Source: Candidatus Vesicomyosocius okutanii
GTDB taxonomy: Bacteria; Pseudomonadota; Gammaproteobacteria; PS1; Pseudothioglobaceae
Length of the DNA stretch: 64,000 nucleotides
Direction of reading: 5' to 3'
Assembly: GCF_000010405.1 (NCBI RefSeq)
Contig: NC_009465.1
Location: 558,001-622,000 of the forward strand
Under the pieces are notes generated by a model that had not been told where the DNA came from, searched no databases, and saw only the letters and a list, made by a program, of their open reading frames with translations. Numbering within the stretch: position 1 is the first letter of the stretch; each line of letters opens with the position of its first letter. This document shows positions 4,691 through 42,733 of this stretch, piece by piece. The translations under genes were made by a program, and so were the position numbers.

Positions 4691-6061
4691 TTATAATGGT
4701 GATAATTGATCAATGATTTCTTTAAAATTAAGCACTAATTCTTGATAATTTTTAAACACTTGGATATAATTAAGATTTACACTTTGTTCATTATTTTGCG
4801 CTGCAATAACAAAACTTATCTGAGAGTTAGCATTATTATATCTTCGTCTTTCTTCAATAGTCCGAGCTTTGGCAGTTTTTATTTGCGCTTTACTTAATTC
4901 AAGTATTTCTACTAAATATTTGATCTTTTGTTTTAATACATTCGCTTTAGCATAAATATTTAGTAATTGCTCTTGCTTTTTCTCTTTAGCTTTAGCAAGC
5001 ATTATTTGTGTTTTTGTAATGTTTGATTTAGCTTGAATATTACCGATAGGATAGCTAAAATCTAAGCCAATATTCCATGATGAACTTGGATTAAAAATAG
5101 AGTTTGTATAATAGCTATTTTTACTTTCATTTGTAATGCCAAGTTTTAAGTCAAATTTTGCTTTTGAATTACTCTTATCACTCTTTAATTGAAGTTCTAA
5201 CAAATCTTGATTTAAATCAGCTATTTTTAATACTCTAGAATTAGCTAATAAGTACTGTTTAAGATCATCTTTATTAATTATGTAAGGCTTATATAAATCA
5301 AATTCAGCTTTAACGCTATAAAGATTAATATCTAAAATAATAGATAATTCATAACGTAAAATATTTAAATATTGTTGAGTTTGAAGTTGCCTATGTTTAG
5401 CGCTATGATAAGCATCTTCTTGCAATAACACATCAACTTTGTCAATAACTGCCATCTTAAATTTTTGTTTAACTAAAGTTAATTCTTGAGCTGCTAAATC
5501 TAGCCGTTGATTATCAATTATTAAACGCTCTTGTATGTAAGCTAAATCAATAAATTTTTTTAATTGGACAAGAATAAAAGCTTCTTTTTGTTCAGCAATA
5601 TTAAGCTTAGATATTTGCATGTTAATACTAGATAAACCCGTATTTAGTTTATCATTTATACCACTTGCATTCTTTAATAATGGATGAACATAATCAATAG
5701 AGAATTTACTATTATTAGTATCTACATTAGTAGTTGTATTCTTATTTTGTTGTCTCCAACTATGTTTAAAAGTAATATCAGCGCCTGAACTTACTATTTT
5801 TTTAGTTGCCAAAAAATCAACTGAAATAGTATTTAAATTATTATCTATATCTACATTGTTAAAATTAGTTTTTACTCCAACAAGCCAATTTTGATTAGCT
5901 GTAGTTTCTTGTTGATCAATTTTCTTAATTTGTAAAGATAAATCAAGCTTTGTAAAAAAAGGATGTATATCTTCTAAACGTTCAATAAATTTATTTTGTG
6001 TCATTGCTTTAGAATTAAAACAAAAAATAAAAATAAAAATAAAAATAAAATGTTTTTTCAT
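4691..6061 (-). CDS. TolC-family outer-membrane efflux protein
   Basis: An outer-membrane channel of the OEP/TolC type, the exit duct of tripartite efflux or type I secretion. After a signal peptide (MKKHFIFIFIFIFCFNSKA) come two long repeats rich in Leu/Ala/Lys/Gln heptads, about residues 150-250 and 345-450, as expected for coiled-coil tunnel helices, with beta-strand-like segments between. 456 aa is normal. It overlaps the aroK stop by 4 bp (ATGA). No membrane-fusion or inner-membrane pump gene is adjacent, so its partner is unknown. The hydrophobic signal core is encoded by a hexanucleotide tandem repeat. Asn and Lys richness follows base composition. Confidence 0.8.
   Translation of the reverse strand: MKKHFIFIFIFIFCFNSKAMTQNKFIERLEDIHPFFTKLDLSLQIKKIDQQETTANQNWLVGVKTNFNNVDIDNNLNTISVDFLATKKIVSSGADITFKHSWRQQNKNTTTNVDTNNSKFSIDYVHPLLKNASGINDKLNTGLSSINMQISKLNIAEQKEAFILVQLKKFIDLAYIQERLIIDNQRLDLAAQELTLVKQKFKMAVIDKVDVLLQEDAYHSAKHRQLQTQQYLNILRYELSIILDINLYSVKAEFDLYKPYIINKDDLKQYLLANSRVLKIADLNQDLLELQLKSDKSNSKAKFDLKLGITNESKNSYYTNSIFNPSSSWNIGLDFSYPIGNIQAKSNITKTQIMLAKAKEKKQEQLLNIYAKANVLKQKIKYLVEILELSKAQIKTAKARTIEERRRYNNANSQISFVIAAQNNEQSVNLNYIQVFKNYQELVLNFKEIIDQLSPL
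6022..6050 (-). repeat. Hexanucleotide tandem repeat inside the TolC-like signal peptide
   Basis: About four copies of AAAAAT on the plus strand (6023-6046 plus partial ends), encoding the FIFIFIF core of the signal peptide. Gain or loss of whole units would change signal length by two residues without frameshift. Confidence 0.85.
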
Positions 6062-34351: not shown

Positions 34352-35266
34352 TTAGTCATACCCTAATGAAGCCAGTGCACGCTTATCATCAGACCATCCT
34401 TGTTTAACTTTAACCCTAAGTTTGAGGAATACTTTTCTATCTAAAAATCCCTCAATACTTTTTCGTGCTTCAGTACCAATTAATTTTAGCATTACACCTT
34501 TATTGCCAATAACAATATTTTTTTGTGAAGCTTTATCAACAAAAATATGAGAAGCAATTCGTTGTAAATTTCTATCTTGTTCAAACTGTTCAATTTCAAC
34601 GGTTAAATCGTAAGGCAATTCGTCTTTTAAATGGCGCATAAGTTTTTCTCGAATAAATTCAGCAACAATAAATTTTTCACTTCTGTCGGTTATATAATCA
34701 GCATCAAAAATAAGAGTTTGTTTTGGTAAATATTGCAAAACTAATTCACGCAATACACAAATATCATTTTTTTTAAATGCTGACAATGGAAATAAATCTG
34801 TTGGTTGATATTTTTGAAAAATTTTATTCAAAAATGGTAACACCTCTTGCGGGGACTTGAGTTTGTCAATTTTGTTAATACATAAAATAACTGGAACATC
34901 TATCTGAGTAATATGTTCTAAAACTCTCAAGTCCTCTTTGGTCCATTTACCTACTTCTATTAACCATAAAATAACATCAACATCCATTATAGCTAAACTG
35001 GCTACTCTATTCATATAAGAATTAATGGCTTTATAGTTGCCCATATGAATTCCTGGCGTATCCACAAAGACCATTTGATAATTATCAGTTGTATCAATAG
35101 CATGAATTCGATGTCGTGTGGTTTGTGGACGGTGTGAAGTGATAGATAATTTACGCCCAATTAATTCATTAATAAGTGTAGATTTACCAACATTAGGTCT
35201 CCCAACAACCCCAATAAAACCTGACTTAAAGTTTGATTTAGTAATTTTATTGTTTATTTTAATCAT
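34352..35266 (-). CDS. era: Ribosome-associated GTPase Era
   Basis: GTPase with a KH domain that binds the 3' end of 16S rRNA and aids 30S assembly. Motifs: GRPNVGKS (about 22-29), DTPG and NKID in the G domain; the KH loop GNKGVMLKLIG is near residue 250. I chose the ATG at 35266, which overlaps the rnc stop as ATGA and gives 304 aa (E. coli 301); an ATG 36 bp upstream would overlap rnc more and add an atypical extension. Confidence 0.95.
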   Translation of the reverse strand: MIKINNKITKSNFKSGFIGVVGRPNVGKSTLINELIGRKLSITSHRPQTTRHRIHAIDTTDNYQMVFVDTPGIHMGNYKAINSYMNRVASLAIMDVDVILWLIEVGKWTKEDLRVLEHITQIDVPVILCINKIDKLKSPQEVLPFLNKIFQKYQPTDLFPLSAFKKNDICVLRELVLQYLPKQTLIFDADYITDRSEKFIVAEFIREKLMRHLKDELPYDLTVEIEQFEQDRNLQRIASHIFVDKASQKNIVIGNKGVMLKLIGTEARKSIEGFLDRKVFLKLRVKVKQGWSDDKRALASLGYD

Positions 35267-35928
35267 GATTTTTTTAATTTTTTTAATAAAATTTGTGCAC
35301 AAAATTGTTCTGCTTTTTTAATGCTTTTAGCAGATTGCTTAACTTGTAGCTTTTGGTCTTCTAAAAAACAATTTACCATAAATATTGCATTATGATCTTT
35401 TCCTGTTGTATCAATTAGTTTGTATTTTGGTAAAATATTACCACGCTTTTGTAGATATTCTTGTAATTGTGTCTTTGAGTCTTTTAGCGAATCATCTGGA
35501 CTGATACTATTTAGCAAGACTTTAAAAAGACCTAAGATAACCATATTAGTGGTTTCAAAATTTGAATCCAATAACACCGCACCAAATATTGCTTCTACAG
35601 TATCTGCTTGAATAGATTCACGCCTATAACCACCACTTTTTAATTCACCAGAACCTAAAATCAAATTGTTTGATAGTTCTAATGCAGTACCTAACTGTAC
35701 CAAAGTTTGACCTCTAATTAAGTGTGATCTTAATCGGGAAAGTTTTCCTTCGTCAACACAAGGAAAACGCTGATAAAGTTCTTTTGAGATTGCTACGCCT
35801 AAAATACTATCACCTAAAAATTCTAAACGTTCATTATTGTTTCTTCCAGTAGAACGGTGTGTTAATGCAAGTTTTAATAAAGACAAGTCTTTAAATTGAT
35901 AATTAATTTTTTTTTGTAATTTTTTCAT
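35263..35928 (-). CDS. rnc: Ribonuclease III
   Basis: Double-strand-specific endoribonuclease that processes rRNA precursors and some mRNAs. The catalytic signature ERLEFLGDSILG lies at about residues 33-44, with the second acidic block DTVEAIFGAVLLD near residue 107. A C-terminal dsRNA-binding domain covers about 150-220. 221 aa is typical. Coupled to era by ATGA. It diverges from the Cas6/Cmx6-like gene, leaving about 70 bp between start codons. Confidence 0.96.
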   Translation of the reverse strand: MKKLQKKINYQFKDLSLLKLALTHRSTGRNNNERLEFLGDSILGVAISKELYQRFPCVDEGKLSRLRSHLIRGQTLVQLGTALELSNNLILGSGELKSGGYRRESIQADTVEAIFGAVLLDSNFETTNMVILGLFKVLLNSISPDDSLKDSKTQLQEYLQKRGNILPKYKLIDTTGKDHNAIFMVNCFLEDQKLQVKQSAKSIKKAEQFCAQILLKKLKKS

Positions 35929-35998
35929 TACTTTGTATTAGGTTTTATAAACGAGTAATGTGTTTATAATACATTCTGATTATAATTTAAGATTTTTT

Positions 35999-36661
35999 AT
36001 GTTTTGGCAAGAAGAAGCTAAAAAAGAACATTTTACGCTGCCTGAAACCATACAAGATGTAGTGTTTAATATCTTCTCTAATATTTTACCTATTGATCAT
36101 AGTTTTTTACTAGAACAAGCGCTACTTAAACACTTACCATGGCTTAATGAGGTAGATGCTGGTATCTTTAATATCAGTGTAGCTGATGGTAATGGCTGGG
36201 TACAGAATCATAAAAACGGATTTTATTACCCTTCCAAACGCTCAAAACTAATTATTAGATTGCCAAAAGATAAGCTTAATGAAACAAAACAGCTACTTGG
36301 TAAAACACTATATTTAGATAAATATGAAATAAAAATTATTAAATTTTTAAAACCCAAATTACTCAGTGACATACCTATACTATTTGCAAAAAAAATTGTC
36401 TGTAATGAAACAATGAGTGAAAATGATTTCTTACAAGATGCTTTTGAACAATTAAAAACACTCGATATTTCTGTTAAGAAAATGATAGTTGGTCTTAAAA
36501 ATCACATTAAAACTGATACTAATATTATTCATACACGTTCTCTAATGGTGGCTGATCTAAAAAAATACGAATCAATAACACTACAAGAAAAAGGCCTTGG
36601 TAATTATCGATTATTAGGCTGTGGCTTGTTTATTCCCCATAAAGATATCACAAGTATCTAA
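35999..36661 (+). CDS. Orphan Cas6/Cmx6-like (RAMP-fold) protein
   Basis: I match this to the type I-MYXAN Cas6/Cmx6 family by pattern. LPIDHSFLLEQALLKHLPWL near residue 32 corresponds to the family's L-P-x-D-H-x-Y-x-L-x-x-A-L...PWL. An R/K-S-x-L-x-x-R-L-P block (RSKLIIRLP) follows. The end has SLMVADL then LQEKGLGNYRLLGCGLFIPH, a glycine-rich loop as in Cas6 proteins. Cas6 enzymes cut CRISPR repeat RNA. No other cas gene or CRISPR array is in the window, so a CRISPR role is doubtful. ATG at 35999 gives 220 aa; an ATG at 35960 would add 13 residues outside the family pattern. Alternative: a domesticated RNA-binding protein. Confidence 0.7.
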   Translation: MFWQEEAKKEHFTLPETIQDVVFNIFSNILPIDHSFLLEQALLKHLPWLNEVDAGIFNISVADGNGWVQNHKNGFYYPSKRSKLIIRLPKDKLNETKQLLGKTLYLDKYEIKIIKFLKPKLLSDIPILFAKKIVCNETMSENDFLQDAFEQLKTLDISVKKMIVGLKNHIKTDTNIIHTRSLMVADLKKYESITLQEKGLGNYRLLGCGLFIPHKDITSI

Positions 36662-36978
36662 CTTTCACTAAAAGCATTTTAGTATTAATAGTTAAACCTT
36701 TAAAAGCAGAATAATTTTCTAGGTTTCAAGATAATTGATAAAGTGCCTATTTAGTTTAAAGTTTATTTTATAAATTCTTTGAAGATTTAGAAAAGAAAAT
36801 AAAGAGTGATAATTTACTTTCATAAAAATGGTTATCATTATTGTGGTAAATTAATTAAAAATAACTTTCATAACATATCTTTAGTTACTAAACTATAAAA
36901 AATTTAACGTCATTAGAAACAAATATATTAAACAAAATAGATTTAGTATACAAAGTATTACAAAATATATTGAATGAT
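36662..36978. other. Gene-free AT-rich stretch, 317 bp
   Basis: Between the convergent Cas6-like and thyA genes. No gene remnant or CRISPR-like repeat seen. Confidence 0.5.
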
Positions 36979-42406: not shown

Positions 42407-42733
42407 ATGACATTAGCTGATTTAGAAAGAGATAATAATGGTTACTTAAAGGATCTTAACGAATGGAATGAGGATATTGCAGTAGAACTTTCAAAAGAAG
42501 AAGGAATTACCTTAACAGATGATAGCTTCAAATTAATTAATTTTTTACGCAATGAATATATCAATAACAACGCCAATCAACCTAATGAACGTAATATGGT
42601 TAAAAGTTTAAAGGATGATTGGAAAGGTAAGTTAAGCACTAAAGAATTATATGTATTATTTCCAAAAGGGCCCGCGAAGCAAGCAGGAAAAATTGCTGGA
42701 CTACCTGAAACTAAACGAAAAGGTGGTTATTAA
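42407..42733 (+). CDS. DsrC/TusE-family protein lacking both C-terminal cysteines
   Basis: 108-aa protein with the DsrC fold pattern (LNEWNEDIAVELSKEEGI, LINFLRNEY, then KELYVLFPKGPAKQAGKIAG). Functional DsrC has a C-terminal arm GPAKGACKIAGLPKPTGCV whose two cysteines carry sulfur; here the arm reads AGKIAGLPETKRKGGY, with Gly and other residues in place of both. TusE keeps the last cysteine, so this is neither. It may be a regulatory or structural paralogue of DsrC. I start at ATG 42407 with TGGAGAAG just upstream; TTG 42392 is less likely. Diverges from lepB. Confidence 0.85.
   Translation: MTLADLERDNNGYLKDLNEWNEDIAVELSKEEGITLTDDSFKLINFLRNEYINNNANQPNERNMVKSLKDDWKGKLSTKELYVLFPKGPAKQAGKIAGLPETKRKGGY

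Follow-up and report, generated by a model that had tools for sequence, protein, structure and literature searches.

A Cas6-family protein outside CRISPR that accompanies the reverse-Dsr sulfur oxidation genes of gammaproteobacteria

In the window (the whole stretch of 64,000 nucleotides analysed here) the genome of Candidatus Vesicomyosocius okutanii encodes a 220-aa protein which, in our judgement, is probably, though by no means certainly, a member of the Cas6 family which lost its ties to CRISPR long ago and today serves sulfur oxidation by the reverse dissimilatory sulfite reductase (rDsr) system in gammaproteobacteria, together with a DsrC paralogue devoid of its cysteines. Cas6 proteins are known for the maturation of CRISPR RNA, which they cut. 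The basis of our reading is made of observations: the fold, the motifs, the linkage to dsr genes, the co-occurrence with dsrA, the purifying selection and the lack of association with cas1. The features to which we refer are the following:

35263..35928, minus strand: rnc (RNase III), a divergent neighbour in Thioglobaceae only, given as context and lying outside the proposed system
35999..36661, plus strand: Cas6-family gene, 220 aa, assigned by family search and fold, with a possible GTG start at 35960
36098..36100, plus strand: codon of His34, presumed to be the catalytic residue, in the LPxDH motif at the N-terminal end of helix 1
36188..36199, plus strand: GNGW motif, residues 64-67, of which N65 and W67 are specific to the Cas6-like clade
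36593..36643, plus strand: glycine-rich loop GLGNYRLLGCGLFIPHK, residues 199-215, from the alignment with relatives and with CRISPR-linked Cas6
36662..36978, no strand: gap of 317 bp up to thyA, without any ORF of 80 aa or more
42407..42733, plus strand: cysteine-less DsrC paralogue ending in RKGGY, elsewhere found directly downstream of the Cas6-like gene

The open reading frame has two candidate starts, a GTG (35960..36661, plus strand) and an ATG (35999..36661, plus strand), and we favoured the ATG because the N-terminus MFWQE which it gives is kept among relatives. There is one copy of the gene in the whole 1,022,154-bp genome, and an intact single copy is found in each of the 12 genomes of the genus; the dN/dS ratio between the gene of the window and those of nine congeners is 0.11-0.23, which indicates purifying selection. 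For a Cas6-family protein without CRISPR, this selection and this retention throughout the genus make a non-CRISPR task likely. Hence the initial annotation, which had suggested that the gene was kept for a different RNA task, is upheld as far as a non-CRISPR task goes, but not in the partnership with RNase III that it proposed (0/99 loci, see below). In many other Thioglobaceae (the SUP05 family) a thioredoxin-fold gene lies directly 3' of the Cas6-like gene, where the window has the 317-bp gap instead.

The Cmx6-type Cas6 pattern initially read along the protein is indeed there: LPxDH, PWL and the glycine-rich loop GLGNYRLLGCGLF are all present and are conserved across 56-61 relatives. The two checks proposed at that time, with Cas6 profiles and with Cas6 folds, both point the same way. 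The protein matches PF09559 (Cas6) with E=3.7e-44 and 151 bits (cut-off 26.7) and the PADLOC Cas6 model at 1.7e-62, and it passes TIGR02807 marginally (99.1 bits for a cut-off of 98.85). Its AlphaFold2 model (pLDDT 88, pTM 0.84) has as best solved match the Cas6 of a type I-B CAST (8fcj_B, Z 24.1, rmsd 2.1 A, 197 residues), and the top matches listed above Z 8 are all chains of Cas6 or of other Cas RAMP proteins. This closest structure shares 21% identity with our protein, has an Asn at the position of His34 and works in a transposon-encoded Cascade. Judging from the predicted model, we are confident that the 220-aa protein belongs to the Cas6 family and has a RAMP fold of the Cas6 type. Thirteen residues are invariant among 56 sequences, including H34, N65-G66-W67, R81, R87, E141, Q196 and the loop G201/G207-C208-G209. 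His34, which directly precedes helix 35-45, is the same in all 56 relatives and in all 7 CRISPR-linked Cas6 proteins, and by comparison with known Cas6 enzymes it is presumed to be the catalytic residue. From the same enzymology we infer that the protein binds RNA and probably cleaves it by means of His34.

The contigs of GTDB hold at least 581 relatives of the protein. The named close ones belong to Ca. Vesicomyosocius sp. Pext (98%), Ca. Ruthia and Ca. Ruthturnera, and the best 80 of these at least 581 include Thioglobus, Thiohalocapsa, Thiomargarita, Marithrix, Leucothrix, Cocleimonas and Solemya symbionts. No relative was found on viral contigs (phages). Of 321 genomes of gammaproteobacterial species, 104 contain PF09559, always as a single match, which in one genome is split over two pieces. 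A phylum-wide draw gave the gene in 5 genomes out of 398, and in the 4 besides the window's own genome it lies within the dsr locus. Rather than being a quirk of one genome, the Cas6-like proteins form a clade present in about one third of the gammaproteobacterial species that were sampled.

We called dsrA (at E<1e-30) in the same 321 genomes. The Cas6-like gene and dsrA are each found in 104 of them: 97 genomes have both, 7 have the Cas6-like gene alone, 7 have dsrA alone and 210 have neither (odds ratio about 416, Fisher p 3e-64, calculated on raw species counts that ignore kinship). The exceptions which we inspected mostly stop at contig breaks, exactly at the expected site of the missing gene. 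The Thioglobaceae provide an independent test, because the Cas6-like gene is not linked to dsr in that family (in the window's own genome it stands at 594 kb and dsrA at 828 kb, about 234 kb apart). There, the five genomes without dsrA are all without the Cas6-like gene (four of the five come from one genus), and dsrA is found without the Cas6-like gene only in three draft genomes, which are 86-93% complete. The few genomes that have dsrA without the Cas6-like gene mean that the latter may be accessory rather than essential.

Outside the SUP05 family, the Cas6-like set usually adjoins dsrAB-EFH-C, divergently. Read from one locus per family, the order in free-living species starts with dsrC-dsrH-dsrF-dsrE-dsrB-dsrA (on the reverse strand), followed by a TauD-family dioxygenase, in some cases by a TPR-like protein, and then by the Cas6-like gene with a gene of the DsrC family behind it. 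The operon type beside which the gene sits in many families is that of Allochromatium vinosum (dsrABEFHCMKLJOPN), and no published account that could be searched names a Cas6-like component of the dsr operon. The stretch retrieved contains dsr genes in 80 of the 99 loci from outside the Thioglobaceae; rnc adjoins the Cas6-like gene in 45 of 45 Thioglobaceae loci and in none of the 99 loci elsewhere (the underlying locus sets overlap in part, and these counts are not independent). Among the remaining 19 loci, nine are short contigs holding a TauD-like or cysteine-less DsrC neighbour and eight show none of these. In SUP05, window included, the Cas6-like gene has moved to rnc, away from dsrA; the window's own genome carries dsrABEFHCMKLJOPNR elsewhere (names assigned by order and similarity).

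A third arrangement, with the Cas6-like gene away from dsr, TauD and cysteine-less DsrC, was seen in the giant sulfur bacteria Parabeggiatoa, Marithrix and Thiomargarita and in one other member of the Thiotrichaceae. The TauD-family dioxygenase, whose gene separates dsrA from the Cas6-like gene, is a recurrent neighbour of dsrA. In some families the TPR-like protein is another one; it has no Pfam match, and its name is our reading of the sequence.

The product of the partner gene is, like the members of the DsrC/TusE family (PF04358), a full-length DsrC-like protein, but it lacks both functional cysteines of the C-terminus and has an invariant RKGGY end, where the true DsrC of the same loci ends in CxxxGLPKPTGC(V/I). 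One and the same model scores true DsrC at 93-115 bits and nearly all cysteine-less DsrC at 148-193 bits. This paralogue may correspond to the DsrC-like proteins called "RspA". Its counterpart in A. vinosum is perhaps Alvin_1508, which falls along with dsrA in PMC11267869. It was found in 92 of the 104 genomes with the Cas6-like gene and in 3 genomes which have dsrA without that gene; among the 321 genomes, none that lacks both the Cas6-like gene and dsrA has it. In the window it follows the Cas6-like gene at a distance of 5.7 kb, both genes being on one strand, and in SUP05 genomes the distance stays at 6-9 kb. The two genes, neighbours elsewhere, are thus still near each other here, though dsr has been left behind. 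The Cas6-like gene had initially been singled out as the best candidate for an undescribed function in the window; this choice was sound in that it is a Cas6-family gene without CRISPR, but it overlooked the link to reverse Dsr and the cysteine-less DsrC (42407-42733).

As for the mechanism, the Cas6-like protein would use His34 and the glycine-rich loop to bind, and probably to cleave, structured RNA, and its action would then be post-transcriptional. The most likely target would be a sulfur-gene transcript, for instance the hairpin just 3' of dsrC, and the cysteine-less DsrC, instead of carrying sulfur, would act as a sensor or regulator. This hairpin lies no further than about 50 nt from the dsrC stop codon; in 59 of the 75 distinct loci it is stronger than every one of 20 dinucleotide shuffles, and among 12 Thioglobaceae two-sided changes are seen at 4 of its 12 pairs (7 cells). 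We put this hairpin forward as a tentative candidate substrate which is on balance unlikely to be the right one; it may equally well be an ordinary terminator or an element stabilising the mRNA. A strong hairpin follows dsrC in most of the gammaproteobacterial dsr operons examined. In A. vinosum grown on sulfide, dsrEFH and dsrC mRNA stand above dsrA, according to PMC3397948 (citing Grimm 2010), and on pyrite the drop of dsrA is far larger than that of dsrC (PMC11267869). The dsrC gene of A. vinosum has its own promoter (PMC3368242), which could explain the level of its transcript. The complete proposal, that a domesticated Cas6 endoribonuclease, with the cysteine-less DsrC at its side as sulfur sensor, processes a hairpin of the dsr transcript and so sets the ratio of DsrC (the sulfur carrier) to DsrAB (the sulfite reductase), is one that we regard as rather unlikely in this full form.

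We also considered a conserved RNA structure in the dsrA leader of Thioglobaceae, which was rejected: the conserved blocks flank a promoter-like sequence and resemble DNA sites, and the z-score obtained for the structure is inflated, as the spread of the shuffles is close to zero. The conserved block of this promoter directly upstream of dsrA in Thioglobaceae, including the dsr locus of the window's own genome, consists of a TATCCCCTAAGGGATA-like palindrome, an inverted repeat AATACCA...TGGTATT and GTATAAT, and is likely the site of a regulator. A search for known RNA families in the window and in four dsr/Cas6 loci gave three tRNAs and nothing else.

The Cas6 fold could instead have been reused in a structural or regulatory protein which does not cleave, for example as a partner of DsrAB, of DsrEFH or of the cysteine-less DsrC. 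We would not expect this, yet it deserves some weight: the constant neighbour is a protein of the DsrC fold, and the gammaproteobacterial clade has invariants of its own that CRISPR Cas6 does not share (W48, N65, W67, R81, E141, K161, R180, K215). Against this stands the full conservation of His34 and the glycine-rich loop, features that Cas6 uses to cleave and bind RNA and that a purely structural protein could do without.

The Cas6-like protein might belong to a branch of tRNA sulfuration in which, with a TusE-like cysteine-less DsrC, it would bind or trim tRNA or another stable RNA at the point where the sulfur relay meets thiouridine synthesis. Its partner is a member of the TusE/DsrC family, and DsrEFH is homologous to TusBCD, as is DsrC to TusE (PMC3397948). 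On the other hand, this partner has no sulfur-carrying cysteines, and the Cas6-like gene is missing from most of the gammaproteobacteria that thiolate tRNA via TusBCDE, so that we consider such a role quite improbable.

Much less credible still is a genuine type I-MYXAN Cas6 processing crRNA, whether as a remnant or for an array situated elsewhere, although the protein passes PF09559 and, by 0.25 bits, TIGR02807. That no CRISPR accompanies the gene had been noted from the beginning, and this was confirmed: the window contains no CRISPR repeat array, cas1 is absent from the whole 1,022,154-bp genome, and no cas3, cas8, cas7 or cas5 was recognised beside the Cas6-like gene in the window or in the neighbourhoods compared. 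Published counts for Ca. V. okutanii are 0 CRISPR sites and 0 CRISPR proteins, and R. magnifica is likewise without either (PMC5361782). Across the 321 genomes the Cas6-like gene shows no association with cas1 (table 45/59/74/143, p = 0.14), and we rejected a CRISPR association of the clade on this ground. A search for array-like repeats in 161 sequences (2.26 Mb) gave a single 69-bp tandem repeat and no CRISPR array; this repeat, of about 4 units, is at positions 5276-5546 of two compared loci (L108 and L136).

Type I-MYXAN Cas6 (Cmx6, TIGR02807/PF09559) is of the same Pfam family as our protein and has in common with it His34, R87, Q196 and the GxGxxRxxGCGxF loop. The CRISPR-linked relatives on plasmids (7 examined) are cyanobacterial I-MYXAN Cas6 proteins of 24-28% identity. 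In 6 of the 7, cas6 is followed by cas3, in five of them within the series cas3-cas8-cas7-cas5(-cas1) and in the sixth within an equivalent set annotated slightly differently. The gammaproteobacterial clade is instead accompanied by dsr genes and never by cas3; it has invariants of its own (GNGW, E141, IPHK) and is split from the CRISPR-linked proteins with 100/100 support. Automatic annotation as "type I-MYXAN CRISPR-associated protein" is therefore misleading for this clade. We must also note that in the seventh relative, from plasmid pGMOR1 of Gloeobacter morelensis, the Cas6/Cmx6 gene is flanked by no further annotated cas gene and has a PAPS-reductase-family gene close by, possibly another non-CRISPR context for Cas6.

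The initial annotation rightly described rnc as starting 70 bp away on the opposite strand, and the comparison with SUP05 relatives for which it asked finds rnc beside the gene in all 45 Thioglobaceae loci, a family-wide position which accounts for that observation. A partnership with RNase III, favoured by this divergent adjacency, was nevertheless rejected as lineage-specific and is hardly believable, since rnc is nearby in none of the 99 loci of other lineages and the SUP05-family genomes without dsrA are also without the Cas6-like gene, although nearly all bacteria have rnc.

We come back to a Cas6-family protein serving rDsr sulfur oxidation. The protein family is known, while the clade, its link to reverse Dsr and its cysteine-less DsrC companion appear to be new: we found none of the three in the searchable literature, which mostly leaves out subscription papers, and an earlier mention elsewhere is possible. 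As A. vinosum is available as a genetic model, the function of the gene can be tested directly. A whole clade of Cas6 follows sulfur oxidation and not CRISPR, and it survives in endosymbiont genomes of 1 Mb, those of clam symbionts without CRISPR among them. One of the best-studied sulfur pathways would thereby gain a cysteine-less DsrC and a component predicted to act on RNA and, if the proposed mechanism is true, a CRISPR nuclease would have been turned into a post-transcriptional regulator of an energy pathway.
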